Shown: one piece after another, positions 16,907-34,563 of the stretch
How positions within the stretch are numbered: position 1 is the first letter of the stretch
Layout of the letters: each line of letters opens with the position of its first letter
Assembly (NCBI GenBank): GCA_016930875.1
Contig: JAFGFW010000106.1
Coordinates: forward strand, 1-44,382
Direction of reading: 5' to 3'
DNA from: Deltaproteobacteria bacterium
GTDB taxonomy: Bacteria; Desulfobacterota; Desulfobacteria; Desulfobacterales; C00003060
Length of the DNA: 44,382 nucleotides
Position numbers and translations under genes: made by a program
Notes under the pieces: generated by a model
The model's input: the letters and a program-made list of their open reading frames with translations, nothing else
Databases searched by the model: none
Told to the model about the DNA's origin: nothing

Positions 16907-17887
16907 ATGGCAACTACTGCTTTAGAAAGACTACGACGACTGCTGAGCCTTTTTTCGCGTGAAGATCGTCTGTTGATCATCATCAACGCAGACCCGGATG
17001 CCATGGCCAGCGCCATGGCTTTGAAACGCCTTTTGTGGCGGCAAGTGTCTGCCACCTGTATCGCCCATGTGAATACTATCAGTCGACCCGACAATCTGGC
17101 CATGATCCGACACCTTAAGCTGGATCTCCTCCCATTTGAAAAGGTGTCCCCAGAGCAATTCACCCGCTTTGCTATCGTCGATTCCCAACCATCCCACCAC
17201 GAGGGGCTTGAGGGCATCGGTTTTGATGTCATCATTGACCACCATCCTGCCAGCGGCGATGAGGCCACCTTTGTGGACATACGTCCGGAGTACGGGGCCG
17301 TATCCACCATCATGACCCAGTATCTGCGGGCTGCCAAGATAAAACCCTCTGTAAAGCTCGCCACCGGGCTCTTCTACGGCATCAAGACAGACACAAGCAA
17401 CTTTGAGCGAAAGTCCGTCATGGAAGATGTGAATGCCTTTCAGTTTCTTTTTCGTTACGTAAACGTGCATATGGCAAGGAGCATTGAGCAGGCGGAACTT
17501 ACCCTGGATTCTCTGAAATACTACCGGAGAGCGTTGGAAGCGATGCGCGTGCAAAAGCGCCGTGTCCATGTGCACCTGGGGCCTGTGTCAAACCCTGATG
17601 TGTGCGTATCCATTGCAGATTTCTTTATGAAGATTCATGATATTGCCTGGACTGTTGTGTCTGGCACCTATCAGGGCCGGTTGGTCATTATTGTCAGAAA
17701 CGACGAGATTCGAAAGGATGCTGGCAGGCTATTGAGTAACGTTTTTGGGCACTTGGGCACCGCCGGAGGACACAAGGGAATGGCCAGGACCGAGATCCCT
17801 CTGGAGAACCTGAAAGGTGTGGTTCAATACAAGGATGACAAGGTAATTTCTCGATGGATTGCCAGACAGCTAGACAGACACACGTAG
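16907..17887 (+). CDS. DHH-family phosphoesterase (NrnA-like)
   Basis: A 326-aa DHH/DHHA1 protein. The N-terminal half shows IIINADPDAMASAMALK, where the usual motif reads DPDA(I/L)GS. AIVDSQPS and FDVIIDHHPASGDEATFVD (the DHH motif) follow, with GLFYGIKTDTSNF after that. The C-terminal DHHA1 half ends GTAGGHKGMARTEIPL, with the GGH nucleotide-binding motif. Relatives degrade short oligoribonucleotides or 3'-phosphoadenosine phosphate, and some hydrolyse cyclic dinucleotides. Which applies is not decided by sequence. It probably ends the pcm-miaA run; an inverted repeat pair follows. Confidence 0.85.
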   Translation: MATTALERLRRLLSLFSREDRLLIIINADPDAMASAMALKRLLWRQVSATCIAHVNTISRPDNLAMIRHLKLDLLPFEKVSPEQFTRFAIVDSQPSHHEGLEGIGFDVIIDHHPASGDEATFVDIRPEYGAVSTIMTQYLRAAKIKPSVKLATGLFYGIKTDTSNFERKSVMEDVNAFQFLFRYVNVHMARSIEQAELTLDSLKYYRRALEAMRVQKRRVHVHLGPVSNPDVCVSIADFFMKIHDIAWTVVSGTYQGRLVIIVRNDEIRKDAGRLLSNVFGHLGTAGGHKGMARTEIPLENLKGVVQYKDDKVISRWIARQLDRHT

Positions 17888-17910
17888 GCATGAAAGCTCA
17901 AAGCATAGGC

Positions 17911-18133
17911 GTTCAGAGTTCACCGTTCAGGGTTACTTTATGTTTTGTTGGTTCAACGCTATGTAGAGCGCACTCTGGACTTCGGGGCAAGTCCGTTTTA
18001 CATACCGATTCAGCGGTCGCAGCCGCTTTGGCGAAGTCGGCAGAAAACCCAACAGACTCCCAAATCCCACGAATCACCGGTTCAGAGTTTCGTGAACCCT
18101 GAACCGTGAACCTCTGAACCCGTGAACGGTTAC
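17911..18133. repeat. Inverted pair of GTTCA-rich repeats between converging genes
   Basis: The left copy 17911-17936 and the right copy 18092-18119 are near-perfect inverted repeats (about 26 bp, core AACCCTGAAC-N-GTGAAC). They enclose about 150 bp. The right copy runs into AACCCGTGAACGGTTAC at 18117-18133, shared with 36010-36026 and nearly with 68-85. The enclosed DNA has small hairpins (GGACTT...AAGTCC near 17979) and no gene. Transcripts from both sides converge here, so it may act as a bidirectional terminator. Confidence 0.6.
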
Positions 18134-18149
18134 CTGAAAGCTACACTCA

Positions 18150-18500
18150 TCACTTGTTCAACAGATTCCTGATGGCAATAAGTTCCTCCCTGAGCTGTTC
18201 AATGGTGAATGGTTTGCTGTTGCGCGCTGCGAGGCCGTCATCTCTTTGGCGCTCCTTGAGATACTGTTTGGCGCCAGCTATGGTATATCTCTTTTCGTAG
18301 AGCAACTCCTTAATCTCCAAAATGATCTCTATATCACGTTTTCTGTAAAGGCGTTGCCCTGAGCGAGACCTGACAGGGCTGATCCTTGAGAACTCCGTCT
18401 CCCAGTACCGCAGTACATACGACTCAAGACCGGTTGCAGCGCTAACCTCACCGATCCTGAAATACCGTTTTGCGGGTATCTCGGCCTCTATGGGCCTCAT
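18150..18500 (-). CDS. MerR-family transcriptional regulator
   Basis: A 116-aa DNA-binding protein with an N-terminal MerR winged-helix domain: YFRIGEVSAATGLESYVLRYWETEF and RSRSGQRLYRKRDIEIILEIKELLYEKRYTIAGAKQYL. A short C-terminal helix follows, with no cysteine-rich effector domain. The start ATG at 18500 has AAGGAG eight bases upstream, inside ihfA, and the two genes overlap by 53 bp. This pairing after ihfA recurs in related bacteria as known gene order. The target genes are unknown. Confidence 0.88.
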   Translation of the reverse strand: MRPIEAEIPAKRYFRIGEVSAATGLESYVLRYWETEFSRISPVRSRSGQRLYRKRDIEIILEIKELLYEKRYTIAGAKQYLKERQRDDGLAARNSKPFTIEQLREELIAIRNLLNK

Positions 18501-18768
18501 TGATTTGCTCCTTCAGCACCCGGCTGACCTTGAAACTCACTACTTTCCTGGCAGGAATTGTCATGGCCTCGCCTGTTTGCGGGTTCCTCCCCTGCTGTGC
18601 CTTTCTTTCACGGACAGCGAATTTTCCAAAGGCCGAAATCATGACCGGCTCCCCATTTGTCAAGGAGCTTTTGACTAACTCAAGGGCTGCATCAACAATC
18701 GCCGCGGTCTCTCGCTTCGGAAAGCCGACTCTCTCGTAAATCGCCTCAACGATGCTTTTCTTGTTCAT
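18448..18768 (-). CDS. ihfA: Integration host factor subunit alpha
   Basis: DNA-bending histone-like protein of 106 aa, acting as a heterodimer with IHF-beta. It starts MNKKSIVEAIYERVGFPKRE. GEPVMISAFGKFAVRERKAQQGRNPQTGEAMTI carries the DNA-intercalating loop with the conserved RNP-TGE. HU-like alternatives are possible, but the location after pheT is the classical ihfA position. It lies 22 bp after pheT and overlaps the downstream MerR gene. Confidence 0.9.
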   Translation of the reverse strand: MNKKSIVEAIYERVGFPKRETAAIVDAALELVKSSLTNGEPVMISAFGKFAVRERKAQQGRNPQTGEAMTIPARKVVSFKVSRVLKEQINEAHRGRDTRKTVFQDR

Positions 18769-18790
18769 ATTTGATTATTCGTTTCTCGGT

Positions 18791-21208
18791 CTACCCTGCT
18801 GGCAGCTCGGCCCTAAACCGTCGCAGGATCTTCTGGGTAACGGCTACGTGAATGCTGTTGACCTCGCTATCAGTAAGATTTCTTTCAAAAGAACGATATG
18901 TTAACCTCAAAGCCATGCTCTTTTTCCTCGCCGGGATTGGAGAGCCTTTATAGACATCAAATATCTCCACGCCATCGATCAGCTCCTGGCCCAGGCCTTC
19001 AATGAAATCCAAAACACTCTGGGCCTCAAGAGCATCATCTACAATCAAGGCGATATCCCGCGCAGTGGCCGGAAACCTGGATATCGGCTTTACGCGTTTT
19101 TCCTCGGAACACAGACAGACAACCTGTTCAAAGTTCAGGTCAAGGCAATAGGCCGGTTGCTTCAATTCAAAATTGTGCAAGACCTGACCGGTCACTTCTC
19201 CCACTGTGCCCACTGATTTCTTGCCTGAATACACCTCGGCGGCATGGCCGGGTCTCAGGTAAGGATGACCCGGACCCTTCAGTGCCCTAAAGCTCACATG
19301 GGGAATATTCAAAGCTGCATACAAGGTATCAACGATCCCCTTGATATCAAAAAAATCCAGCTTTTCTTCCTGGACATTCCATGTGCTATTGTGCTTCGTC
19401 CCGGTCCAAAGGCCGGATATCATCTCCACCTCTTCAGGAAGTTCATCATGGCCGGTCTTCAAAAAGATCTTGCCCAGTTCGAAAACCCTCAGGTTCTCGT
19501 TTCGCTGCGTGCTATTTCTAAACATAGTAGTCAGCAGGCCTGGAAGCAACGAGGTCCTCATGACGCCAAGCTCTTCGGTAAGAGGGTTGACGATAGACAC
19601 CATCCGCCGACGCGGGTCGTTATCTGCGAGCAGAAGCCTGTCACAGGCATCTTCGCCTATGAAACTGTACGTTACAATCTCCGAGAACCCACAGCCGGCA
19701 AGGACCTGGCGGAGCAGATCCCTGACCCGAAGCCGTTTTTCCTGTTCCTTGGCCACCACATGCGACACAGGTTGGGTGGTGGGGATCTTATTGTAACCAC
19801 TCAACCGCGCCACCTCCTCCATGAGGTCCTCTGGACGTTCGATATCCACACGGCAAGTTGGCGGCGCCACCTTGAGCCTATCTTCATCCAGGACCTCAAC
19901 GTCAAACTCAATGGATCCCAGGTGAGAGATAATCGCGTCCCGGCTTAATCCAGTACCCAGAAGCCGGTTCGTGCGATCCACACTGAGTTCTATCACCCTT
20001 TCAGGAATTGGCCGCGGGTAAACATCAATGACGCCGGCAGCTAGACTCCCACCTCCCATCTGAACCATAAGTTGAGCTGCCCGATCCAAGGCCCTTACTA
20101 TCCCTTCAGGGTCTACGCCCCTTTCAAACCGGTGTGACGATTCGGTGCTCAAACCGAGCCTCTTGGCGGTACGCCTGATGGTGATTGGATTAAAATAGGC
20201 GCTTTCAATAAGGACACGAGTCGTATCATCTTCGATTTCCGATTCAAGCCCGCCCATGATTCCGGCCAGGGCCACAGGCCCTTTGCCGTCGCAGATCATG
20301 AGCGCTTCATCTGTAAGGTTGCGTTCCGTGCCGTCCAGGGTGGTAAAGATCTGCCCCTCTTTCGCTGTTCTTACAACGATACGATGCTCGGCCAAGCGGT
20401 CGAAATCAAAAGCATGCAAGGGTTGACCAGTCTCCATAAGGACAAAATTGGTCGCATCCACCACGTTGTTGATGACCCGGAGCCCCACGGAATTCAACCT
20501 GTCTTGTAGCCAGAAAGGAGAGGGGGCTATGTGGACCCCTGTGACGAGCCGCGCGCTATACCGAGGACAGTGATCCGGGACTTCGATGGTCACGGACGCA
20601 AGCTCCTCAATGGGTGTTTCGCCTGATGGGAGCTTCACCTCCGGATAATTCAAGGGCACGCCAAGAATGGCTGCCACCTCACGGGCTATGCCAATGACGC
20701 TGAGACAGTCGGAACGATTTGGGGTAAGGTCAAACTCGATGACGGTATCTGAGAGGCCAAGGGCCGCGGCAACCCCCCTGCCTGGTACGCTTGACTCAGG
20801 CAGAACAAGGATGCCGGATCTGTCCGTTCCAAGGGCAAGCTCTGCTTCAGAACACAACATGCCTTCTGAAACTCGTCCCCGGATACGACCGGCTTCAATC
20901 GTATCGCCTGAAGGAAGCTGAGTCCCAGGAAGCGCTACCGGCACCAAGTCGCCCTTCTTGATATTGGAGGCTCCGCAAACGATGGACTTAACTCCCGCGC
21001 CTACATCCACTTTGCACACGGAAAGTGTGTCGGCATCAGGATGGGGTATTATTTCAACAAGACGTCCCGCCACAACGCCATCCAGATAAGCATATCGATC
21101 TGAAAGGGCGTCCACCTCCAGTCCTGCCATGGTAAGAGCCTCGGCAAGCTCAACCACATCCGCATCGACAGTTACATAATCCTGAAGCCAGCTTAGACTA
21201 ACTTTCAT
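18791..21208 (-). CDS. pheT: Phenylalanyl-tRNA synthetase beta subunit
   Basis: Large subunit of the (alpha-beta)2 PheRS, 805 aa. It shows the N-terminal KVSLSWLQDYV, a tRNA-binding OB fold (about 40-150: HPDADTLSVCKVDVG and IVCGASNIKKGD), and the B3/B4 editing region (about 210-380: ATNFVLMETGQPLHAFD). A B5 DNA-binding-like domain (about 405-475) and the C-terminal ferredoxin-fold anticodon-binding domain (about 710-800: SRFPATARDIALIVDD) follow. B3/B4 edits Tyr-tRNA(Phe). The length is normal. It follows pheS by 154 bp in the thrS-to-merR operon. Confidence 0.97.
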   Translation of the reverse strand: MKVSLSWLQDYVTVDADVVELAEALTMAGLEVDALSDRYAYLDGVVAGRLVEIIPHPDADTLSVCKVDVGAGVKSIVCGASNIKKGDLVPVALPGTQLPSGDTIEAGRIRGRVSEGMLCSEAELALGTDRSGILVLPESSVPGRGVAAALGLSDTVIEFDLTPNRSDCLSVIGIAREVAAILGVPLNYPEVKLPSGETPIEELASVTIEVPDHCPRYSARLVTGVHIAPSPFWLQDRLNSVGLRVINNVVDATNFVLMETGQPLHAFDFDRLAEHRIVVRTAKEGQIFTTLDGTERNLTDEALMICDGKGPVALAGIMGGLESEIEDDTTRVLIESAYFNPITIRRTAKRLGLSTESSHRFERGVDPEGIVRALDRAAQLMVQMGGGSLAAGVIDVYPRPIPERVIELSVDRTNRLLGTGLSRDAIISHLGSIEFDVEVLDEDRLKVAPPTCRVDIERPEDLMEEVARLSGYNKIPTTQPVSHVVAKEQEKRLRVRDLLRQVLAGCGFSEIVTYSFIGEDACDRLLLADNDPRRRMVSIVNPLTEELGVMRTSLLPGLLTTMFRNSTQRNENLRVFELGKIFLKTGHDELPEEVEMISGLWTGTKHNSTWNVQEEKLDFFDIKGIVDTLYAALNIPHVSFRALKGPGHPYLRPGHAAEVYSGKKSVGTVGEVTGQVLHNFELKQPAYCLDLNFEQVVCLCSEEKRVKPISRFPATARDIALIVDDALEAQSVLDFIEGLGQELIDGVEIFDVYKGSPIPARKKSMALRLTYRSFERNLTDSEVNSIHVAVTQKILRRFRAELPAG

Positions 21209-21362
21209 GGGTCAAAGGTCTGCTCATGGTGGTTACTAGTTGGCTTATCCGTGATCAGTCATCACTTATTATTAGCGCCATTACACTACCCGATGCAGGA
21301 AAAGCATATCACTTGACTCAACGTGCCAGAGATTTATCGGGCATCTGGTATCCGGCATCCGG

Positions 21363-22370
21363 TCAAAACTGCTTAAGAAATCTGATATCATTTTCGTAGA
21401 ACTTTCTGATATCGTCAATACCGTACTTGAGCATTGCAATACGCTCGATACCCATGCCAAAGGCAAAACCAGTGTAACAGTCCGTATCATAGCCCACCAT
21501 CTCAAATACCGCAGGGTGCACCATGCCGGCGCCCAGAACTTCCAGCCATCCGGTATGGGAACAGACCCGGCAGCCTTTGCCGCGGCAAATCACACACCGT
21601 ATGTCGACTTCAGCGCTCGGCTCCGTGAACGGGAAGAAGCTGGGACGAAAGCGCAGACTGGTTTCTTCGTCAAATATTTGATGCACCAATGTGGTCAGTA
21701 TCCCCTTCAGATCACCGAATGAGATATTTTCTCCTACCATCAGCCCCTCTATCTGGTGAAACATTGGCGTGTGAGAAACATCAGAATCGACGCGGTAGAC
21801 CTTGCCTGGCGCAATGATACGTATCGGTGGTGATCGCTTTTCCATGACGCGGATCTGGATGGGCGAAGTATGGGTTCGCAAAACCACGTCATCCGAAATA
21901 TAGAAGGTATCTTGCATGTCACGGGCAGGATGATCTTTGGGAATGTTGAGGGCCTCAAAGTTATAGTAATCGAGTTCCACGTTAGGGCCCTCAGCAATCT
22001 CAAAGCCGAGTCTAAGGAAGATCTCGGAAATCGCCTGTGTCATTTGCGTAATTGGATGTAAATGCCCTCTGGCAAAGGGCCGCCCAGGTAAAGTCACGTC
22101 CAGGCCGCCTGAAGGCTCTTTGCTGTCAGCGTCGAGTCTTTCGATGGCCTCCCTGAAGGCGACCTCAAGCCTTGTCTTCACCTCGTTGGCAAGCCTTCCC
22201 ACCTCAGGCCGATCCGCGGCAGGCACGGTCGAAATCCCTCGCAGGCATTGTGTCACCACGCCTTTGCGCCCCAGGTACCGAGTTCGCAAGAGGTTGACTC
22301 CTTGCAGATCGCTGGTTGTCTCCAGGCTCTTCAAGGCTTCCTGTTCTGTTTTCTTCAGTTCCTCCTTCAT
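21363..22370 (-). CDS. pheS: Phenylalanyl-tRNA synthetase alpha subunit
   Basis: Catalytic class II subunit, about 335 aa. It has an N-terminal coiled coil (residues 1-90) for tRNA binding, motif 2 HTSPIQIRVMEKRSPPIRII...GKVYRVD, FHQIEGLMVGENISFGDLKG, and motif 3 FAFGMGIERIAMLKYGIDDIR. The start was placed at the ATG at 22370; a TTG three codons earlier (22379) is also in frame. It lies 59 bp after rplT. Four cysteines in the segment VDIRCVICRGKGCRVCSHTG replace the shorter loop of many homologues and could hold a metal. Confidence 0.96.
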   Translation of the reverse strand: MKEELKKTEQEALKSLETTSDLQGVNLLRTRYLGRKGVVTQCLRGISTVPAADRPEVGRLANEVKTRLEVAFREAIERLDADSKEPSGGLDVTLPGRPFARGHLHPITQMTQAISEIFLRLGFEIAEGPNVELDYYNFEALNIPKDHPARDMQDTFYISDDVVLRTHTSPIQIRVMEKRSPPIRIIAPGKVYRVDSDVSHTPMFHQIEGLMVGENISFGDLKGILTTLVHQIFDEETSLRFRPSFFPFTEPSAEVDIRCVICRGKGCRVCSHTGWLEVLGAGMVHPAVFEMVGYDTDCYTGFAFGMGIERIAMLKYGIDDIRKFYENDIRFLKQF

Positions 22371-22429
22371 TAGCGGCAAATATCTATGCGTTTTCCAGTG
22401 ACAGAACTTCCGATTGTCCGGTTGCCGAT

Positions 22430-22783
22430 CTACGAAGCAGCGCCTGCGGCCATGACCGCCAATTCAGAAAAGCCTTTTGGATCTGAAACGGCCAGCTCCG
22501 CCAGTATTTTTCGATCAATCTCCACGCCTGCGCTTTTCAATCCATTGATAAGCCTACTGTAAGAAAGATCGTTAAGGCGTGCCCCTGCGTTGATCCGGGA
22601 TATCCACAGTCTTCTGAAGTCACGTTTTCGGGTCCTTCTATCCCTGTATGCATACTGAAGGGCCTTGTCTACGGCATCGGCTGCTGTGCGATACAGCTTG
22701 CTGCGACCGCCGCGATAACCCCTAGCCAGCTTCAATATCTTTTTTCGCCTCCTTCTGGCCTTAAATCCTCGTTTGACTCGCAT
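22430..22783 (-). CDS. rplT: 50S ribosomal protein L20
   Basis: A 117-aa basic protein needed early in 50S assembly. It starts [22 protein letters not shown] and has [39 protein letters not shown] and the C-terminal globular domain. A strong AAGGAGG lies before the ATG at 22783. In enterobacteria L20 represses rpmI-rplT translation by binding the leader. An unusually long gap (298 bp) separates it from rpmI here, so that control, if present, would have a different layout. Confidence 0.97.
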
Positions 22784-23081
22784 GACTAGTACCTCCTTGG
22801 AGTGCGTTTTTGGCCCTCTTGCCTAAGAGCTGGGTCAAAAATTGAATAATTCAGGAACCTGCCTCGCCGGCAGGCGGGTTGGCGGAATTGCATCTAATCC
22901 CATCATCGCTAAGTTCTTGAATCTCTGCGATGTTCTCAAGCCGTCTAGGCGCAATTCTTAAATTCTTCAATTAGTTGTCAGTATTCAAAAACAGTGTATT
23001 CCAAATATTTTCTGCCAGAAAAAACACGAATTTCATAACTAACGGACTAAATTCCTCAATCATTTATGAGTAACGAACGAC
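22784..23081. other. Expanded rpmI-rplT gap with repeat-like sequence
   Basis: No gene is visible. The gap holds a palindrome-rich stretch near 22858-22885 (CCTGCCTCGCCGGCAGGCGG). A segment near 23013-23055 resembles 11253-11280: both have TGCCA, A-rich, CACGAA-N-TTCATAA-N-TAACG-N-ACTAA. The rpmI-rplT gap is usually a few tens of bases, so these look like dispersed repeats inserted into the ribosomal-protein operon. Confidence 0.5.
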
Positions 23082-23279
23082 TCATACATAAGGAATCAAG
23101 CGTTTAACCATGGCAATGTTGGTTTTGTCCACCGTACCTGGCTTTCTCAGGGTCCGCTTCCTTTTTGTCGTCTTCTTTGTTAAGATGTGGTTTGCATGGG
23201 ATTTTGAAAATCTTATTTTCCCTGTTCCCGTGACCTTAAAACGCTTTGCAGCGCCACGGTTTGTCTTCATCTTTGGCAT
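23082..23279 (-). CDS. rpmI: 50S ribosomal protein L35
   Basis: A 65-aa highly basic ribosomal protein. The start was set at the ATG at 23279, giving the universal [21 protein letters not shown]-terminus. The longer frame to 23315 adds 12 residues unknown in the family. A GAGAGG sequence lies upstream as ribosome binding site. The product contains [19 protein letters not shown] and ends MVKRLIPYV. It lies between infC and rplT, the conserved position. Confidence 0.96.
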
Positions 23280-23574
23280 TGTATTTGTCCTCTCATCTCT
23301 GTTTCGCAATTTCAAACGTCAAGGCGGTGAGTTGCTCATCCTATGGCAAAAAAAGTCCCCTTGGCTGAAATAGAGCGCCATTGCTTCGAACACGGGAATC
23401 CCTTCGCGATCCAATATGGTCCTGCCTTGGGCGGGTTTCGCCGTCCATTTGATAACTTTCTACGAGTTCATCAAAAAGGGATTTCCTATGCAATCAAGTA
23501 AAATATACTCGTCTTGGAGCAATAATCTGTCAAGGCATGATTTTTCGCATCCGAAAGAGGGAATCTGCTGGAAG
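23280..23574. other. Expanded infC-rpmI gap
   Basis: A 295-bp non-coding gap where a short spacer is normal. On the minus strand TTGACA (forward TGTCAA near 23527) is followed 20 bp later by TATATT, a poor promoter spacing. A GC palindrome (CTTGGGCGGG/CCGCCC-type) lies near 23436. No frame with a good start was found. It may carry a repeat and regulatory leader for rpmI-rplT. Confidence 0.4.
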
Positions 23575-24081
23575 TTATCTATGGGCAAGAATCATGAACA
23601 TCTGGCGGCCCTCTCGCCTCGCCTCTTGCTCCACACCGGCGAAGTCCGATGTCTCGTCAGCTATTCGTTTGAGTAGTTCCGATCCACGCTCTGTGTAAGC
23701 CAGTTCCCTTCCTCTGAACATGATCGAAACTTTCACCTTATCCCGATTTTCCAAGAACCGTTTGATCTTTCGCAGCTTCACCTGGAAATCATGCTCGCCG
23801 GTCATTGGACGGAATTTTATCTCTTTGATTTGATAACCCGACGACCGCTTCCTGGACTCTTGAATCTTTTTACTCTGTTGGTACTTATATCGACCATAAT
23901 CCATGATCCGACAAACCGGCGGATTGACCTGAGGGGCAACCTCAACCAAGTCCAACCCGGACTCTTCTGCAATTCCCAGAGCCTCCCTGACCGGCACAAC
24001 CCCCAGTTGATCGCCGTCAGCACTTATCAGCCTGACCTCTTTGGCCCGAATCCTTCGGTTAACATTAACGCGCTTTGCTAT
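23575..24081 (-). CDS. infC: Translation initiation factor IF-3, probable AUA start
   Basis: IF-3 keeps ribosomal subunits apart and checks the start codon and initiator tRNA. The product shows the N-domain NRRIRAKEVRLISADGDQLGVVP, the linker RKRSSGYQIKEIKFRP and the C-domain KVKVSIMFRGRELAY. Only the GTG at 24088-24090 is a conventional start, but it overlaps the Shine-Dalgarno GGGAGGTGA (24087-24095). The codon with correct spacing (eight bases after GGAGG) is ATA at 24079-24081, which gives an IAKRVNVNRRIRA start (Ile read as fMet), 168 aa. Rare start codons in infC (AUU in E. coli) are the known basis of IF-3 autoregulation. If GTG is used, the protein has three more residues. Confidence 0.9.
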   Translation of the reverse strand: MAKRVNVNRRIRAKEVRLISADGDQLGVVPVREALGIAEESGLDLVEVAPQVNPPVCRIMDYGRYKYQQSKKIQESRKRSSGYQIKEIKFRPMTGEHDFQVKLRKIKRFLENRDKVKVSIMFRGRELAYTERGSELLKRIADETSDFAGVEQEARREGRQMFMILAHR

Positions 24082-24162
24082 GTGCTTCACCTCCCTGATG
24101 GTTCATGATTCACAATTTAAAAAATATACTAAAAATAGGGCTTTTACGCAATATCTTTCTTT

Positions 24163-26043
24163 CTAACCGACAAAAATGGGACGCCTGGAAATGTCTTGAG
24201 GCAAGGGAAGATCAAGAAACGGTTTTCCTTTCATCTGAGGTTCAATTTCAGCTAAGAGCTCAGGCAGAGTCATCTTTCTCTGGGCCCCGTCTCTGGTTCG
24301 AACATTCAAATACCCTCCAGCCACTTCTTTTGCTCCAACAACCAGAATGTAGGGGATCCATTCTCTTTCTGCCCCCCTTATCTTGCGTCCCATGCTGCTA
24401 TCGCGATCATCATAGTCGATTCTATAGGGGATGCCCGACAAAACCTCTCTACATGCCTTATCGAATTTTTCAGAGACCGGAATTATACGCAACTGTACAG
24501 GAGCAAGCCAAAAGGGGAAGGCGGCCTTCTGCCCTCTTTTCATACGTATGGCCTGGGTCTCCAGTATGGCATAAAGCACCCTGTCGACAGAACCGGATAT
24601 AGAGGCATGCAAGAGAAGCGGGTGCTGTTTCTCCCCGCTTTCGTCAACATAGGTTATGTCAAATCTCTCAGGATTTTCAACATCTATCTGCACTGTTGAC
24701 AGACAAGCCGCTTTGTCCAGGGCGTCGATGAAGTTGAACTCAAGCTTTGCAACAAAGTAAAACGAGCGCTCCTCCCAAAGTTCAATCAAGGCGGGCCGTC
24801 CACAGCGGGAAACGAGATTTTGGACAAAAGGCTTATGCTGTTCAGCGAAATCCTGGACAAACCTGATGGCCACTTCGAAATCAAGGCCAAAGCCTTCCAA
24901 ACATTCAATGGCCAGGTCGGCCTGGCGGACGAACTCCTCTTTGGCCTGCTCCATATCCTTGGCCAATGTATGAAGGTCCGGCATGGTGAACGTTCGCAGG
25001 CGTTTGAGGCCAGCCAGTTCTCCTGATTGTTCACGCCTGAATGAATAATGGGTTAACTCATAGAGTTTACACGGCAGATGGTGATGAGAGATCTGCATGT
25101 CATGCTGAATCAGGTATTGGCCAAAACAAGCTGCAAACCGGAGAAAGTATTCCTTCTGGCCTGAAAGGAGCACATATTGTCGAGCCGGGAACCGCTGCAG
25201 GTACAGGTTAAGCTTTGGGTGTTGATAGTCGTACATGATAGGGGTTTCGACCTGCATGCCTCCGTACCGGGTATTAAAGTCGCTCACGTATTTCTCGGCC
25301 AGCCTTTTTATCAACTGCCCCTTCGGATACCACCGAAAATTCCCTTGGTCAGAGCCAGGCTCATAGTCCACCAACTCCATACGACGCATCAAGTCGATAT
25401 GTGGGGGCGATTGCTCGGAGATACGGCTTCCGGACTTCTCGTACCGGAACAGCCGCTCCAAATTCGGCCGGGTCGCAAAAGAAAACCCCTCTGCCGGGCC
25501 GCTGTAAGCGGATTTGCCTTCCGGCGTCATGATCATCCACTCCGACTTAAGGGTCTTTTCTGCCTTGATGGCTTGAGATTCTTCAGCCTCATCAGCTTTA
25601 TCAGTATGCCCGGATGGCGTGATAGTCTTGGCCAGCTCAGACAAGGGATGCCCTTTGCATGATATCTCAAAAGCCTTGTAATAGCCAAAAGGGGCTCGTA
25701 TTATCTTTAAGTGGTTGTGGCTTTGAAGCCGGGTGAAGATCTCATCCAGCAGCTTCACAGCGACCCGGGGGGAACTGAGTGAGCTTGAAAGATGGGCATA
25801 TGGATAGATTACCAGATTCTCCGCGCCTATCTGTGCCGCAAGAGTCAAGACTTCTTCGGTCACTTGGTCGGCTACGGAACCAACATTGGCGTTATCGCCC
25901 TTTTCGGCTGCCATGAAAACCACCAAGGCTTCGCTGACATCTCCCTCCGACTTGGACTTGTCGAGTTCCCCGGGCAAGGCCGCGGTGGTTTCGCCCGTTA
26001 CACGAAACGAGAACCTGTCTGCATGTATTAGAAGAATACGCAT
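24163..26043 (-). CDS. thrS: Threonyl-tRNA synthetase, archaeal type with archaeal editing domain
   Basis: Class II synthetase charging tRNA(Thr). The N-terminus MRILLIHADRFSFRV, with NLVIYPYAHLSSSLSSP and IIRAPFGYYKAFEISCKGHP (residues 1-140), is the archaeal ThrRS editing domain, related to D-aminoacyl-tRNA deacylase. The bacterial TGS and HxxxH editing domains are absent. Motif 2 reads FRREQSGELAGLKRLRTFTMPD, also archaeal-like. Zinc ligands appear to be Cys of AACFG, His of MPDLHT and His of LLHASISGS. The C-terminal anticodon domain is complete. A GTG-started frame extends 10 codons further (26073); the ATG at 26043 matches archaeal N-termini. 626 aa. It still sits immediately before infC, as bacterial thrS does. 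Confidence 0.93.
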   Translation of the reverse strand: MRILLIHADRFSFRVTGETTAALPGELDKSKSEGDVSEALVVFMAAEKGDNANVGSVADQVTEEVLTLAAQIGAENLVIYPYAHLSSSLSSPRVAVKLLDEIFTRLQSHNHLKIIRAPFGYYKAFEISCKGHPLSELAKTITPSGHTDKADEAEESQAIKAEKTLKSEWMIMTPEGKSAYSGPAEGFSFATRPNLERLFRYEKSGSRISEQSPPHIDLMRRMELVDYEPGSDQGNFRWYPKGQLIKRLAEKYVSDFNTRYGGMQVETPIMYDYQHPKLNLYLQRFPARQYVLLSGQKEYFLRFAACFGQYLIQHDMQISHHHLPCKLYELTHYSFRREQSGELAGLKRLRTFTMPDLHTLAKDMEQAKEEFVRQADLAIECLEGFGLDFEVAIRFVQDFAEQHKPFVQNLVSRCGRPALIELWEERSFYFVAKLEFNFIDALDKAACLSTVQIDVENPERFDITYVDESGEKQHPLLLHASISGSVDRVLYAILETQAIRMKRGQKAAFPFWLAPVQLRIIPVSEKFDKACREVLSGIPYRIDYDDRDSSMGRKIRGAEREWIPYILVVGAKEVAGGYLNVRTRDGAQRKMTLPELLAEIEPQMKGKPFLDLPLPQDISRRPIFVG

Positions 26044-26158
26044 CCCAAAAACACAAAAGGCATCTGAAAGCACATCAACCCAGATGCCCCATCCATTTTG
26101 AACTTTAAAACATAACTTAAACTGCTCTCGTAATAAGATCGCGCCGCAATTTTATGCA

Positions 26159-26175
26159 GCGCGGCTTTGCCGCGC
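26159..26175 (-). promoter_or_regulatory. GC-rich hairpin in the thrS leader
   Basis: GCGCGGC-TTT-GCCGCGC forms a perfect 7-bp stem within the predicted thrS leader, about 45 nt downstream of the predicted transcription start. It has no T-run on the minus strand, so it is not a plain terminator. It could be a translational operator or a stabilising element. Confidence 0.4.
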
Positions 26176-26225
26176 GAAACCCACGAAAAAAGAAAATCCC
26201 CATACAACCAAGTTGAAAATCTGGT

Positions 26226-26256
26226 ATCATATATAAACATGTCCACGAAAAGTCAA
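26226..26256 (-). promoter_or_regulatory. Candidate promoter of the thrS-infC-rpmI-rplT-pheST-ihfA operon
   Basis: On the minus strand TTGACT (26251-26256) precedes TATATG (17-bp spacer) or TATGAT (26226-26231, 19-bp spacer). Transcription would begin near 26219, giving a thrS leader of about 175 nt. The position in the divergent thrS/hxlB gap fits. Confidence 0.5.
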
Positions 26257-26298
26257 GACTAAGTTTAGTAATGTGTCAGCCCGCAAGCTGGTATCCGA

Positions 26299-26325
26299 TT
26301 GACTCTGAGGTCTCTTTCCTATAAC
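26299..26325 (+). promoter_or_regulatory. Candidate promoter for hxlB
   Basis: TTGACT at 26299-26304 and TATAAC at 26320-26325 are 15 bp apart, about 55 bp before the hxlB start. The spacer is shorter than ideal, so confidence is modest. Confidence 0.35.
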
Positions 26326-26380
26326 CTCACTTCCGGTCAGTATTTGAAGATGTTCGTCATGTTGTTGAAAGGACAATCTA

Positions 26381-26938
26381 ATGAACGTCCAAGGGCTTGT
26401 TGAAGCCATACTAGACGACGCCCGAAACCTCGTTGCAAAAGCGCCAAGAGAGCCGATTGAGCGTTTCGTTGAAGGGCTTGGCCAGGCAGAGAGGATTTTT
26501 TGTGCGGCCCAGGGAAGATCCGGATATGTCTTGAGGTGTTTTTGTATGCGCCTGATGCATTTGGGATATAGGGCCTACTTTGCCGGCGAGACCATCACTC
26601 CCCGGGTAGGCGCGGGAGACATGGTTGTTGTTGTTTCGGGTTCGGGCCAAACCAGATTCACGTGCGAGTTTGTCAAGCTGGCAAAGCGCCAGGGGGGCAC
26701 AACCTATGGTATAATCGGGGTTGAAGATTCCCCCGTGGCAAGGGCCCTGGATCATGTCATTTGTCTTCCAGGAGGATCAAAGGCAGACATGACCCATGAG
26801 CCCGTGTCTCTCCAGCCTTTGGGGTCTTTGTTTGAACAGGCCGCCTTTGTGTTGTTGGAAGCGATCGTGCTGGAGCTGTTCCAGAGGCAGGGCAGCAATC
26901 ATCAGGCGTTGCTCGAGCGACATGCCAACCTGGAATAG
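26381..26938 (+). CDS. hxlB: 6-phospho-3-hexuloisomerase (SIS domain)
   Basis: A 185-aa SIS-domain isomerase that interconverts 3-hexulose-6-phosphate and fructose-6-phosphate in the ribulose monophosphate pathway. It shows RIFCAAQGRSGYVLRCF, ITPRVGAGDMVVVVSGSGQT and a C-terminal PLGSLFEQAAFVLLEAIVLEL (catalytic Glu region). AAGGACA precedes the ATG. Other SIS sugar-phosphate isomerases look alike, but the hexulose-phosphate synthase gene 72 bp downstream settles the call. Together they could fix formaldehyde, or run in reverse to make pentose phosphate, as in archaea lacking a full pentose pathway. Confidence 0.88.
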   Translation: MNVQGLVEAILDDARNLVAKAPREPIERFVEGLGQAERIFCAAQGRSGYVLRCFCMRLMHLGYRAYFAGETITPRVGAGDMVVVVSGSGQTRFTCEFVKLAKRQGGTTYGIIGVEDSPVARALDHVICLPGGSKADMTHEPVSLQPLGSLFEQAAFVLLEAIVLELFQRQGSNHQALLERHANLE

Positions 26939-27010
26939 TACAAGTTCCACGGCAACGTCAAAGTCGAACAATCAACTTTTAAGACACTGGAGTAGTTTTG
27001 AGGTGCAACG

Positions 27011-28297
27011 ATGAAACCGGTTCTTCAATTGGCTTTGGATTTTGTTGATCTGAAACGGGCCGTAAAAAACGCTCGGGCCGCTGTGGAGGGTGGAGCGGAC
27101 TGGATTGAGGCCGGAACGCCCTTGATCAAGAGTGAGGGGCTTGAGGCTGTCAGGGAGCTGAGGAGGCTATTTCCTCGGGCAACGATTGTTGCTGATATGA
27201 AGATCATGGATGCAGGTCGCATCGAGGTTGAAACGGCTGCCAAAGCAGGCGCCAACGTAGTCGATGTCCTGGGCGCTGCAAGCGACGCCACGATTCGCGA
27301 ATGTATCCAGGCAGCAAAAAACTACGGGGCCAGGATTGTCGTGGATCTCATCGCAGTCAAGGACCCTGTGTCGCGAGCCAAGGAGGTTGAGGGCTTTGGA
27401 ACCGACTACATAACGATTCATTGTTCCATAGACGAACAGATGGAGGGAAAAGACCCCTTTGAAACGCTTCGCAAAGTTGCTCAAAGCGTCTCTGTGCCCG
27501 TGGGGGTGGCAGGGGGGATCAACTCAGAGACAGCTCCCAGAGCCCTGGAGGCGGGGGCATCGATTGTGATTGTGGGTGGGGCCATCACAAAAGCTGTTGA
27601 TCCTGAGAAGGCGGCCAAAACCATCAAAAAGGCCATGAAAGAACTGGTTGCCATTCCCACAAGGCTCTTTAAAAGAGGATCGGAGGCGGAGATTCGAGAA
27701 ATCCTTGACAAGGTCTCGGCAGCGAACTTGTCAGATGCCCTGCACAGAGGTGGCGTGATGGAAGGCCTGCGGCCTTTATTTCAAGGGATCAGGCTTGTGG
27801 GCCGGGCGCTCACGGTCAGGACCTATCCCGGAGATTGGGCCAAGCCGGTCGAAGCCATTGATGTTGCTGAAGAAGGAGACGTGATCGTCGTTGACGCAGG
27901 CGGCCTGGGACCGGCTATTTGGGGCGAACTGGCCACGCATTCTGCCCTGCAAAGGCGACTGGCAGGTGTGGTCATAGACGGCGCCATGCGCGACACCTAT
28001 GACATCGGCCAGATGAAATTGCCCGCCTTCACAAAATTGATCATGCCTAATGCAGGCGAACCTAAGGGCTTCGGCGAAATCGGCGTGCCCGTGACAGTAG
28101 GCAATCGAAAAGTGGAAACCGGTGACTGGATTCTAGGGGATGATGACGGGGTTGTGGTGCTGCCAAAATCAATGGCTACCGAGTACGCCAACCGTAGCAT
28201 GGACGTATTGGAACGAGAAAACCGCATCCGCGAGGAAATCAAGGAAGGAAGCACCCTCAGCAAGGTGACTGAACTGCTCCGCTGGGAAAAGAAATAG
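27011..28297 (+). CDS. hxlA: 3-hexulose-6-phosphate synthase fused to an RraA-like domain
   Basis: A 428-aa two-domain protein. Residues 1-210 are an orotidine-decarboxylase-fold HPS domain (LQLALDFVDL, GADWIEAGTPLIKSEG, ATIVADMKIMDAGRIE, YITIHCSIDEQ, GVAGGINSETAP). It condenses formaldehyde with ribulose-5-phosphate or does the reverse. Residues 220-428 are an RraA/HMG-aldolase-like domain (AANLSDALHRGGVM, GDVIVVDAGGLGPAIWGELA, and GVVIDGAMRDTYDI with the DG-x2-RD motif). This fusion is familiar from archaeal genomes, where the second domain's role is unresolved. It follows hxlB, and a 4-bp gap separates its stop from the convergent DUF2062 gene. Confidence 0.9.
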   Translation: MKPVLQLALDFVDLKRAVKNARAAVEGGADWIEAGTPLIKSEGLEAVRELRRLFPRATIVADMKIMDAGRIEVETAAKAGANVVDVLGAASDATIRECIQAAKNYGARIVVDLIAVKDPVSRAKEVEGFGTDYITIHCSIDEQMEGKDPFETLRKVAQSVSVPVGVAGGINSETAPRALEAGASIVIVGGAITKAVDPEKAAKTIKKAMKELVAIPTRLFKRGSEAEIREILDKVSAANLSDALHRGGVMEGLRPLFQGIRLVGRALTVRTYPGDWAKPVEAIDVAEEGDVIVVDAGGLGPAIWGELATHSALQRRLAGVVIDGAMRDTYDIGQMKLPAFTKLIMPNAGEPKGFGEIGVPVTVGNRKVETGDWILGDDDGVVVLPKSMATEYANRSMDVLERENRIREEIKEGSTLSKVTELLRWEKK

Positions 28298-28301
28298 CCC
28301 C

Positions 28302-28913
28302 CTATCGTTGCCTTCTTAGTCGGAGCTTACGGGCTTTTTCCCTGGCGGTCTTCACCATGGACAGAATCACGAAATAACCTATCAGGGCAACAGCAACGCC
28401 GGTGATGGCGCCACCCAGGGTGAGGGAAAGAAAGACGTGCCTGCCGGCATGCCAAAATGTCTCCCAGGAAGGGTTTGAAAGGAAACCAGCCTTTACCGGG
28501 TAGCCGAGCAGCCTTGCCCCCACTTTGTAATTGAACCAGTAGATAAAAGGCGCGGTAGCCGGATTTGTAAGCCATACGCTTGCAGCCGCTGCCACTTTGT
28601 TGACTTTGAACAAGGCGGCAATGGGCACGGCTATCAGCATCTGGAATCCCATGGTCGGAGACATGGCAACAAAAAAACCTGCCGCTGCCCCCCATGCGAT
28701 TTGTTCAGGGTTACCGTGGAGGCGGATGAAACGATCATAGAAATACCGGGCGAACCTCCTGATGCGACCGGGCGACGGATCTTGCCATTGCGGGTCATAC
28801 TCGGGCGGGAGGGTCGACCATTCCGGGTCATGGCCGGTGGTGAAATGCCGATCTTCTGTAGGTTGTTTTTCCTGCAAAGCGTTTCTCACAAGAATGATTA
28901 CCTGGTTGATCAT
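28302..28913 (-). CDS. DUF2062-domain membrane protein
   Basis: A 203-aa protein with a charged N-terminal cytoplasmic part (residues 1-75), then the DUF2062 region: PEQIAWGAAAGFFVAMSPTMGFQMLI, LFKVNKVAAAASVWLTNPATAPFIYWFNYKVGARLLG. It has three or four membrane segments and a basic C-terminus (KLRLRRQR). DUF2062 proteins are sometimes fused to or near glycosyltransferases; their function is unknown. It converges with hxlA and is followed upstream on the same strand by the PrmA-like gene. Confidence 0.82.
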   Translation of the reverse strand: MINQVIILVRNALQEKQPTEDRHFTTGHDPEWSTLPPEYDPQWQDPSPGRIRRFARYFYDRFIRLHGNPEQIAWGAAAGFFVAMSPTMGFQMLIAVPIAALFKVNKVAAAASVWLTNPATAPFIYWFNYKVGARLLGYPVKAGFLSNPSWETFWHAGRHVFLSLTLGGAITGVAVALIGYFVILSMVKTAREKARKLRLRRQR

Positions 28914-29056
28914 TTCCAGAAAAGTTTGAAAACAGGCTCTCCAAAAAATTGTTTCTTATCAGGATTTTTGTTCAAATTCCACAGAAAACCAATAACCACG
29001 ATTTTTCCAACACCCCAAGAAGTACTGAGGTGTGCTGCCAAATGACTGATTACTGT

Positions 29057-29977
29057 TTAGGAATCCGGTTTGCGCAGTAAAAGACCAGCCCAACCCTGAT
29101 CGCGCAAGTAGGCCTTCTCCTCCGCCTCGTTGTGGATGTACGGTCTTGAAATGAGTTCTTTCTGGCCTTTGCAAAACCCTGCCAGTATCAGCCACCCCCC
29201 TGGCCGGACAGCCCTCCAGAGGCTCTGATGCGCTTCAACGTGGACTGAAGGCACCAGGTTGGCCAGCACAACGTCAAAGGGTCCGCGGCAGCACGACAAT
29301 TTGCCCAGAACCAAATAGACCCTCGATCCTGCCATGGGATTGAGCTGCAGGTTAACTCGTGCAGCAACCACCGCCTCAGCCGAAATGTCCACGGCAAGCA
29401 CCTTGAACCCTCCGAGGGCTGCGCCAGCCAACGCCAGAATGCCGCTCCCGCATCCTGCGTCAAGGGCCCAGGCCCCACGCACGGGCGGCAACCCAAAGTC
29501 ACCTGCAAGGAGGACGTCCAGCAGCTCTAATGACAGGAAGGTGCTCGGATGACTTCCGTCGCCAAAGGCGTCCTTTGCGTCAATGCGGAGCACGGTCTGG
29601 CTGCCTTCGGGTTCGACGTGCTCGAGGGGCGGAGCCACCACGAGGCGGGAAGAGACACGGACAGCCTGTGGCTTTCCTTGCTCCCCACCAACACCATCAT
29701 AGGCCTCAAAACCCCTGAGATTAATACCGAGCGACTCCCAGAGACCGTATTCTCTCTCAAGTTGCCTCACCATCCCTTCTATTCCTGCAAGCCGGGAATC
29801 AACCTGCGCATTTCGTTTGATGATCCCCTTGACAAGCCAGACGCCGGTCGTTCCCGCAGGCTCTTCCCGGACAGGTGAACCTGTGAAACCGCCAAGCGCT
29901 TCACTCACAGTCTTTCTTAGCCGAAAAGGTGTGCTCACCGCCACTTCTATCCATGGTTGACTTGTGTGCGCTGCCAT
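29057..29977 (-). CDS. prmA: Ribosomal protein L11 methyltransferase-like protein
   Basis: A 306-aa SAM-dependent methyltransferase with the PrmA layout. An N-terminal substrate-recognition domain begins MAAHTSQPWIEVAVSTPFRL; a Rossmann domain follows with DAKDAFGDGSHPSTFLSLELLD, WALDAGCGSGILALAGAALG and FDVVLANLVPSVH. The usual AFGTGxHxTT loop is AFGDGSHPST here, and the post-I motif VLAVDISAEAV is standard. PrmA trimethylates L11, but the Thr-to-Asp change at the loop leaves the substrate less certain. The gene stands alone on the minus strand with a repeat upstream. Confidence 0.75.
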   Translation of the reverse strand: MAAHTSQPWIEVAVSTPFRLRKTVSEALGGFTGSPVREEPAGTTGVWLVKGIIKRNAQVDSRLAGIEGMVRQLEREYGLWESLGINLRGFEAYDGVGGEQGKPQAVRVSSRLVVAPPLEHVEPEGSQTVLRIDAKDAFGDGSHPSTFLSLELLDVLLAGDFGLPPVRGAWALDAGCGSGILALAGAALGGFKVLAVDISAEAVVAARVNLQLNPMAGSRVYLVLGKLSCCRGPFDVVLANLVPSVHVEAHQSLWRAVRPGGWLILAGFCKGQKELISRPYIHNEAEEKAYLRDQGWAGLLLRKPDS

Positions 29978-30078
29978 GTTCTTGTTAATTCCTGAATCGT
30001 GAAAGTGGTGTTTTTTGCGGAAAACAAAAAAAACACGAAATTAGGCCTGGTTGCAAGGTGCAGAGCAGAAAATGACGT

Positions 30079-30109
30079 TTTTCGTGTGTTGCGGCGTTCG
30101 CCTTGAGAA
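30079..30109. repeat. Second copy of the dispersed 31-bp element
   Basis: These 31 bp are the exact reverse complement of 11120-11150. Upstream, near 30010-30040, an A-rich stretch ending AAAAAACACGAAATT may be the degenerate partner arm, as in the first copy. It lies between prmA and the MFS gene. Confidence 0.7.
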
Positions 30110-30193
30110 CATCACGTGGTAAATTTTGTTTCTCCTTTTTTGTTCCGGATTGTCCAAGTTAGATCCTATCATTACCACAATAGCTGGTGTTTT

Positions 30194-31408
30194 ATGAACA
30201 CAAAGGTGTTTGCTACCCTGTTTTTAGCTGTTTTTTCCGTCACACTGGGCGTGGGCCTGGTGGTTCCGTTGCTGCCGGTCTATGCCCACAAATTGGGCGC
30301 AACCGGACTTTGCATAGGCTTTATCTTCGGGGCCTTTTCGCTATCAAGAACGGCCTTTCTCCCCCTTTTTGGCAGAATGTCGGATATTAGGGGCCGGAAA
30401 CCCTTCGTCACAACCGGGCTTCTGGGATATTTCCTGGTCTCAATCGCCTTTGCATTTTCCGAAAGCGTGGAAATTTTTATCCTGATCCGCTTCTTGCAGG
30501 GAATTGCGTCGGCCATGATCCTGCCCGTGGCCCAGGCCTATGTCGGGGAAATCACGCCCGCGCAAAAGGAAGGCTTCACCATGGGCCTGTTTAACATGTT
30601 CCTTTACGCGGGTCTGAGTCTCGGGCCGGTTGTCGGGGGCGCGGTCAACGATGCCTTTGGCATTCAGGCATCCTTTGTGGGCATGGGGCTGGTTTCGCTC
30701 CTTGGTTTCCTCCTGTGTCTTGTCTTGCTGCCGCCCAGAAGCAAGGAAAAACCTCTTGTAAAGCCCAAGCTGCCGGTTCGTTACGCAATCCTCATCAGAA
30801 ACAGATACATTTGCGCTCTTTTCATGTTCCGATTGGCCTACACCACCTGTATCGGGATTGTGTGGGCCTTCCTTCCCCTTCTTGCAGACTCTGGTTTCAA
30901 TCTGTCAAGCTCGTCTATCGGAATCCTGGTTATGCTCGGGGTGCTCACCTCCGGTCTCCTGCAGACCCCAATGGGCCTTTTGGCTGATCGCTTCAGCAAG
31001 AGAGTCCTGATCGTTGTGGGCGGAATGGTGACTGCGGGAGCCATCTTTTCATTCGTTTACGCTCAGGGATTCTGGGGGCTCTTTGTGGCCAACATCTTGT
31101 TCGGAATCGGCGGAGGGATTGCAATACCGGCTGTCATGGCCATGACAGTCATCTTAGGACGTCACACAGAGTCCATGGGCTCTATCATGGGCCTTTTGAC
31201 CATGGGCCACAGCCTGGGAATGCTTGTGGGCCCTATTCTGGCGGGCCTGATGATGGATGCCTTTCGATTGGAGCTGGCCTTTGTGGGAGGCGCTGGTGTC
31301 ATGGGAATTGGGGTTTGTGTTGCGCTTGCGTTCACTTCCGGCTTCAGAATGAGTATAGAGGAAAAACAAAAACGAGACGCTACTATTTGCGTCAAGACCC
31401 TTAAGTAA
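30194..31408 (+). CDS. Major facilitator superfamily transporter
   Basis: A 404-aa integral membrane protein with 12 predicted helices. The loop 2-3 motif reads FGRMSDIRGRKPFV, matching the MFS motif A (G-x3-D-x-RGR+). A second copy after helix 8 is MGLLADRFSKRVLI. IRFLQGIASAMILPVAQAYVGEI is motif B-like and GLSLGPVVGGAV motif C-like, which is typical of drug/proton antiporters. The substrate is unknown. The frame runs back to 30116, but the ATG at 30194 starts just before the first helix. No strong ribosome binding site is seen. The gene has no obvious operon partners. Confidence 0.88.
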   Translation: MNTKVFATLFLAVFSVTLGVGLVVPLLPVYAHKLGATGLCIGFIFGAFSLSRTAFLPLFGRMSDIRGRKPFVTTGLLGYFLVSIAFAFSESVEIFILIRFLQGIASAMILPVAQAYVGEITPAQKEGFTMGLFNMFLYAGLSLGPVVGGAVNDAFGIQASFVGMGLVSLLGFLLCLVLLPPRSKEKPLVKPKLPVRYAILIRNRYICALFMFRLAYTTCIGIVWAFLPLLADSGFNLSSSSIGILVMLGVLTSGLLQTPMGLLADRFSKRVLIVVGGMVTAGAIFSFVYAQGFWGLFVANILFGIGGGIAIPAVMAMTVILGRHTESMGSIMGLLTMGHSLGMLVGPILAGLMMDAFRLELAFVGGAGVMGIGVCVALAFTSGFRMSIEEKQKRDATICVKTLK

Positions 31409-31743
31409 GGCCGAAAGTGCTATTACTATTCCTCCAAAACCATTAGTCCAATGTTCCAGCGCTCCAGTACTCCAATTGGAGCCCTCGCATACAAAGAGCC
31501 TTCCAAATTGTGTGTCAGCCGACGGGCGAGCCTCTCAGGCATGATTGACAATAGAATCATACTGGTTTAGATTTGACATACTCTGAAGAAGCCCGCATGA
31601 AACAGCAAAGTGATCCGCCCGGGGCGGATCGCAGTGACCTGCGTGCGTGCAAAGCACAGGCAGGGGGAAGGTGAAGCAAAATCCGCCGGAGGCGGCAAGA
31701 TGGAATTTTTGCGAAGCCGACAACAATGGAAAGGCAATAGATT
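31409..31743. other. Intergenic region rich in small palindromes
   Basis: No gene is visible in 335 bp. It holds CTCCAATTGGAG near 31471-31482, the palindrome GATCCGCCC-GGGGCGGATC near 31611-31630 and ATCCGCC-GGAGGCGG near 31682-31697, all of the CCGCC/GGCGG type also seen at 12307. These look like extragenic repeats before the MoxR cassette. The ATG at 31744 is preceded by GGAAAGG. No convincing promoter was found. Confidence 0.5.
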
Positions 31744-32577
31744 ATGAAGTCACAAACTAGCGAAACCGTCACCATGGGTTCACTGGAAATCATGCTGGCC
31801 CAGCCTGCGGAGTTGCCTTTGAAATGGGTGGGACAGAAGGAATTGATAAAGCAGGTACTGGCCGCATGGATGGTCATTCACGAAAAGGATGCTCCTTTCA
31901 ACCCCCGTCTCGTTGGGAAACCTGGCGTTGGCAAGACCACACTCGGGTATGCTGCGGCCAAACAGCTAAACAGGCAGATATACCTGTTTCAAGCTACCAT
32001 GGACACTCGACCTGAGGACCTCATCATCACCCCTGTGATGGGGGGAGACGGCAAGGTGAAATACGCTGCCAGCTCTTTGGTTACGGCCATGATCAGGGGC
32101 GGTGTGTGTATCTTGGACGAAGGGAACCGGATGAGCGAAAAATCGTGGGCATCTCTTGCTCCTCTACTGGACGACAGGCGATATGTGGAATCTATCATAA
32201 CCGGTTTGACCATATCAGCCCACCCTGACTTCAGGTTTGTGGTCACGATTAACGAAGATGCTTCCACCTATGATATCCCCGAATATATCCACTCAAGACT
32301 GCAGCCCCAGATATTTATCGATTTTCCGGACCGAGAAGACGAACTGCTGATCCTAAAGGAAAACCTCCCCTTTGCCGACGAGGACATCCTGAACTACATG
32401 GTCGATTTTCTCCAACGGAGCCATATGGCAGACGAGGTCTATTCTGTGCGCGACGGAATCAATATGGCCAGGTACGCCCTTAAGATGATGCACGGAACTC
32501 GAATGACAAAAAAAGAAGCCCTTCACCTTGCGCTCCTCAATGTGCTTGGGGATGAGGCCCTTCGTTATCAAGAGTAA
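31744..32577 (+). CDS. MoxR-type AAA+ ATPase
   Basis: A 277-aa AAA+ ATPase of the MoxR/AAA_5 (dynein-related) type. Walker A is GKPGVGKTT at residues 58-66, Walker B VCILDEGNRM at about 121-130, and sensor 1 is in FRFVVTINEDASTYDIPEYI. The arginine finger lies in IHSRLQPQ. A C-terminal lid with YSVRDGINMARYALKM follows. MoxR ATPases act as chaperones that remodel or activate partner proteins, often with VWA-domain proteins encoded beside them. No VWA gene is adjacent; the partner is instead the 649-aa protein that begins 2 bp after the stop, suggesting tight co-translation. Confidence 0.85.
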   Translation: MKSQTSETVTMGSLEIMLAQPAELPLKWVGQKELIKQVLAAWMVIHEKDAPFNPRLVGKPGVGKTTLGYAAAKQLNRQIYLFQATMDTRPEDLIITPVMGGDGKVKYAASSLVTAMIRGGVCILDEGNRMSEKSWASLAPLLDDRRYVESIITGLTISAHPDFRFVVTINEDASTYDIPEYIHSRLQPQIFIDFPDREDELLILKENLPFADEDILNYMVDFLQRSHMADEVYSVRDGINMARYALKMMHGTRMTKKEALHLALLNVLGDEALRYQE

Positions 32578-32579
32578 AG

Positions 32580-34529: not shown

Positions 34530-34563
34530 CCTTGCAAACCCCGGCGAGAAAGGAGGATCACTC

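Follow-up and report, generated by a model that had tools for sequence, protein, structure and literature searches.

An archaeal-type threonyl-tRNA synthetase at the thrS-infC locus of an uncultured Desulfobacterales-type genus

Threonyl-tRNA synthetase (ThrRS) is an essential enzyme that exists in a bacterial and an archaeal form, and the domains with which the two proofread are unrelated. The common form of bacteria and eukaryotes, arranged as TGS, N2, core and anticodon domain, edits through the N2 (tRNA_SAD) domain, whereas the archaeal rare form (ThrRS-R; NF003068/PRK03991) carries a DTD-like editing domain. The literature places the rare form in archaea only (Andam and Gogarten 2011, PMC3191353; Fournier et al. 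2015, PMC4427996), and the same editing domain is known in bacteria fused to SepRS (PMC5424206; PMC8762117). A literature search, with most subscription journals outside its coverage, returned no report of a whole archaeal-type ThrRS in bacteria. A comparable situation is that of the CPR bacteria, in which archaeal TyrRS and TrpRS likewise occur together with archaeal-type tRNA identity; there the archaeal tRNA identity is itself the reported novelty (PMC5370408), whereas in the present case the relevant tRNA feature appears older than the enzyme swap. Here we describe a rare-form ThrRS that is encoded by a bacterium, inside the infC operon, in a window of 44,382 nucleotides (the whole stretch of DNA analysed). 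We consider it very probable that, in the ancestor of the genus, the gene of a working archaeal-type ThrRS took the place of the bacterial thrS at its native thrS-infC-rpmI-rplT-pheST locus, and that the enzyme charges tRNA(Thr) and edits Ser-tRNA(Thr). The features of the locus are the following:

24163..26043, minus strand: thrS, archaeal-type (rare-form, ThrRS-R) threonyl-tRNA synthetase of 626 amino acids, assigned from NF003068 (781 bits), its being the sole ThrRS, and the tree
25621..26043, minus strand: putative DTD-like Ser-tRNA(Thr) editing domain (PF08915), assigned from Pfam, the Pyrococcus abyssi structure match and residue alignment
24556..25158, minus strand: class II catalytic core (PF00587) with the ThrRS zinc ligands C306, H358 and H479
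24244..24495, minus strand: HGTP anticodon-binding domain (PF03129), assigned from Pfam
23575..24090, minus strand: infC (IF-3; PF00707, PF05198), directly downstream of thrS
23082..23279, minus strand: rpmI (L35), assigned from translation and tblastn
22430..22783, minus strand: rplT (L20)
21363..22379, minus strand: pheS
18791..21208, minus strand: pheT, an ordinary bacterial PheRS beta subunit with B3/4, B5, FDX-ACB and CLM domains, assigned from Pfam

The thrS frame comprises 626 codons from an ATG at 26043 and could extend upstream as far as a GTG at 26073. Its product covers the entire profile of the archaeal ThrRS editing domain (PF08915, E=1.6e-44) and matches the core (PF00587, E=1.2e-20) and the anticodon domain (PF03129, E=1.5e-14), while Pfam gave no match in it to TGS (PF02824) or to the bacterial N2 editing domain (tRNA_SAD, PF07973). 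The best NCBIfam model was the archaeal threonine--tRNA ligase (NF003068/PRK03991), whose cut-off of 484 bits is exceeded by the 781 bits obtained; the general thrS model reached 474 bits. The first 144 residues align along their length with structures of the P. abyssi N-terminal domain (2HL1, E=2.2e-32), and the P. abyssi residues located near the scissile bond, H83, Y120, K121 and E134, have their counterparts in H84, Y122, K123 and E136. Across the genus these editing residues are conserved except for the H83 counterpart, which is Gln in one member. The zinc ligands are invariant in the rows checked, and the arginines of motifs 2 and 3 are conserved in the genus. The motif-2 segment GLKRLRTFTMPD is common to the window protein and to the Candidatus Glassbacteria sequences described below, the archaeal rows reading GL(K/R)RLR(T/A)FTMPD. 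The first-pass annotation had seen an archaeal editing domain at the N-terminus, neither TGS nor bacterial editing domain, and a motif 2 as in archaea; all three points hold, the first being sustained by the Pfam and P. abyssi matches and by the editing-domain tree. The protein has the same domain order, DTD-like domain, H/Y/K/E and zinc residues as the archaeal rare form, with about 50-54% full-length identity to the nearest archaea, whereas its core is about 27-30% identical to that of the common form, which catalyses the same reaction. The sequence predicts a complete ThrRS that is able to edit, and the conserved residues suggest that it is active.

The genus is an uncultured Desulfobacterales-type lineage known from metagenome-assembled genomes (MAGs). 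In the window genome (97% complete) this gene is the only ThrRS, further matches being weak class II partials. An editing-domain gene adjoining a ThrRS core was found in 19 of 22 sampled genomes of the genus and neither ThrRS type was seen in the remaining three (65-85% complete), so that the frame originally called at 24163..26043 on the minus strand is neither a product of chance nor a one-off assembly error. No bacterial ThrRS was found in any of the 22, nor a second thrS of that type in the window genome. Nearly all of 38 other genomes of the same order carry the bacterial enzyme, most scoring 664-735 bits, with fragments or no ThrRS in a few incomplete ones. In a sample of 345 genomes of the phylum, the archaeal type appeared in the window genome only. 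Two MAGs hold frame-disrupted copies, one broken between the editing and catalytic domains (L052:709-2506) and the other inside the core (L056:273-2152); both are probably assembly errors. A natural split into editing and catalytic genes was considered for G012 and discarded, as only this one MAG shows it, the linker having suffered a deletion and the frame being shifted.

Within the genus, thrS sits immediately ahead of infC-rpmI-rplT-pheS-pheT, the order conserved in E. coli and the one that had first been read from the window. No Rfam match to a regulatory RNA was found near thrS (window 17000-32000). That the archaeal gene had replaced the bacterial one in place was also proposed at the outset, and this claim stands with a qualification. 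The nearest sampled relative, G026, of a sister family, has a bacterial thrS, with a tRNA_SAD match, directly before infC-rpmI-rplT-pheS, and it is sister to the genus at 100/100 in a tree of infC, rplT and rpmI; therefore, the shared ancestor most simply had the thrS-infC order. In the sister the native gene thus occupies the corresponding position, and no bacterial copy was found elsewhere in the recipient. However, most order relatives have their bacterial thrS elsewhere, typically ahead of a VanZ-like gene and a 2Fe-2S protein (names read from translations), so that the words in place rest on one sister genome. An unlikely, though not negligible, course of events would have comprised two steps: the bacterial thrS would first have left the neighbourhood of infC; later the archaeal gene would have been inserted before infC and the moved copy lost. 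It would agree with the finding that about 29 of 30 bacterial thrS loci examined in the order lack infC within 1.5 kb, infC being preceded there by other genes, e.g. a deaminase, but it is opposed by the arrangement in G026. In-place replacement is the simplest reading.

A second, unrelated bacterial lineage, which the first-pass annotation did not mention, has the same enzyme. In the phylum of Candidatus Glassbacteria the archaeal type occurs in 6 of 121 genomes (loci L050, L206-L210), and in one of its genomes (G430) it is the sole ThrRS. These proteins are about 60-62% identical to that of the genus, but they belong to a different phylum and their genes do not adjoin infC; bacterial thrS lies beside infC at 5 of 10 loci checked in that phylum. 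In a tree of the catalytic and anticodon domains the genus groups with the archaeal type, and the branch that divides these sequences from bacterial ThrRS has 100/100 support and a length of about 9 changes per site. In the full-length tree, built with archaeal-type sequences only and rooted on Nitrososphaerota, the genus and Glassbacteria form one clade (100/100), joined at 100/99 by Hydrothermarchaeum, the nearest archaeon among those sampled. The editing-domain tree, whose root is unreliable, keeps archaea, Glassbacteria and the genus separate and is compatible with the other trees; there is thus no sign of different histories for the two halves of the gene. An archaeal origin, as first proposed, follows from the position of the catalytic domain outside bacterial ThrRS and from the match of the N-terminal domain to the archaeal editing family. 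Since archaea were represented only by Hydrothermarchaeum, Nitrososphaerota and the phylum to which Archaeoglobaceae belong, the donor can be placed only approximately; it may have been a relative of Hydrothermarchaeota or a bacterial intermediary. The gene may have been transferred between the two bacterial groups, or both may have obtained it from one archaeal lineage. One thaumarchaeal assembly contains two full-length archaeal-type ThrRS genes (L058 and L060).

The single clade formed by two distant bacterial groups could also be taken as the remnant of an archaeal form already present in early bacteria and retained by few lineages. We regard such vertical inheritance as very improbable, given that one in 345 genomes of the phylum and six in 121 of the Glassbacteria phylum would require very many losses, and that the clade nests with Hydrothermarchaeum within the sampled archaea. 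Joining of an archaeal contig into a bacterial bin, conceivable in that the genomes are MAGs and that of the window has an estimated contamination of 3.1%, can practically be discarded, as thrS beside infC recurs in many assemblies of the genus, including a single-contig genome, the flanking genes are bacterial, and protein identity is 76-98% between members of the genus and at most 55% to archaea.

The discriminator base U73 is the archaeal signature of tRNA(Thr), the E. coli tRNA having A73. It was found in the tRNA(Thr) genes of 17 genomes of the genus, 14 relatives in the order (each belonging to a family outside the genus, their ThrRS, where found, being bacterial), five Glassbacteria and seven bacterial-ThrRS genomes of the Glassbacteria phylum. 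For two tRNAs of one genome (G432) the discriminator was called as g, an artefact caused by repeats in the acceptor stem; their 3′ end is ...GGC-U. The editing domain of Methanosarcina mazei hydrolyses archaeal Ser-tRNA(Thr) only, probably through U73, the bacterial N73 is A or U, and how the archaeal domain reads base 73 is stated to be unknown (PMC11295145). U73 of the host tRNA(Thr) is probably the base that the archaeal editing domain requires. However, the domains of P. abyssi and Aeropyrum pernix acted in vitro on Ser-tRNA(Thr) of E. coli (PMC4491819), an A73 tRNA, so that any need for U73 may be quantitative or differ between species, and reviews disagree on which archaeon needs U73 for charging (PMC9976931 versus PMC11295145). 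A change of the tRNA to U73 along with the enzyme was rejected, as U73 is likewise present in relatives of the order that have the bacterial ThrRS; it therefore appears to predate the swap.

Taking these data together with the replacement favoured above, we propose the following model. The archaeal-type thrS would have taken the place of the bacterial gene in the ancestor of the genus, presumably by recombination at the locus. The U73 already present would have made charging and editing compatible on arrival, the enzyme would charge all tRNA(Thr) of the host, and Ser-tRNA(Thr) would be cleared by the N-terminal DTD-fold domain instead of by the bacterial N2 domain. We further suggest, tentatively and as a possibility that may well prove wrong, that base 73 gates the interdomain spread: only bacteria that already have U73 would be able to receive the archaeal enzyme, as clearance of Ser-tRNA(Thr) by its editing domain would depend on this base, and the enzyme would have spread between bacterial phyla by that route. 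With two recipient lineages only, U73 compatibility is a hypothesis and not a statistical result. A genus-wide swap inside a ribosomal-protein/IF-3 operon, together with its occurrence in a second bacterial phylum, indicates that a whole proofreading mechanism is exchangeable across domains, and, as recipients and bacterial-ThrRS relatives both have U73, they provide a natural test of base-73 reading by the archaeal editing domain.

As to the isoacceptors, a first pattern scan had suggested that the genus had lost tRNA-Thr(CGT), which was discarded when a second scan detected, in other members, intact copies whose D-loop is shorter; five other genomes of the genus have an intact gene. In the window genome this gene (L282; G000 C130:3180-3360) is disrupted in its 5′ half, is not called by ARAGORN and looks broken. 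The same genome encodes, outside the window, a free-standing 135-residue PF08915 protein (L002; contig C43:435-842), and homologues 59-79% identical to it occur in a minority of the families of the order (L024-L034). It was considered as an editing partner and rejected: the counterparts of Y120, K121 and E134 are missing, which makes it unlikely as a standard Ser-tRNA(Thr) editor, and from its sequence it likely has a different DTD-fold function. Divergent from thrS, positions 26381-28297 of the plus strand contain a SIS-domain gene and an OMPdecase-family/RraA fusion, which look like a hexulose-phosphate synthase/isomerase pair and are found upstream of thrS only in the nearest relatives of the window. 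Further along the plus strand (31744-35487), a MoxR-like AAA ATPase (AAA_5), a protein with a weak DUF5682 match and a universal stress protein are encoded in a row.
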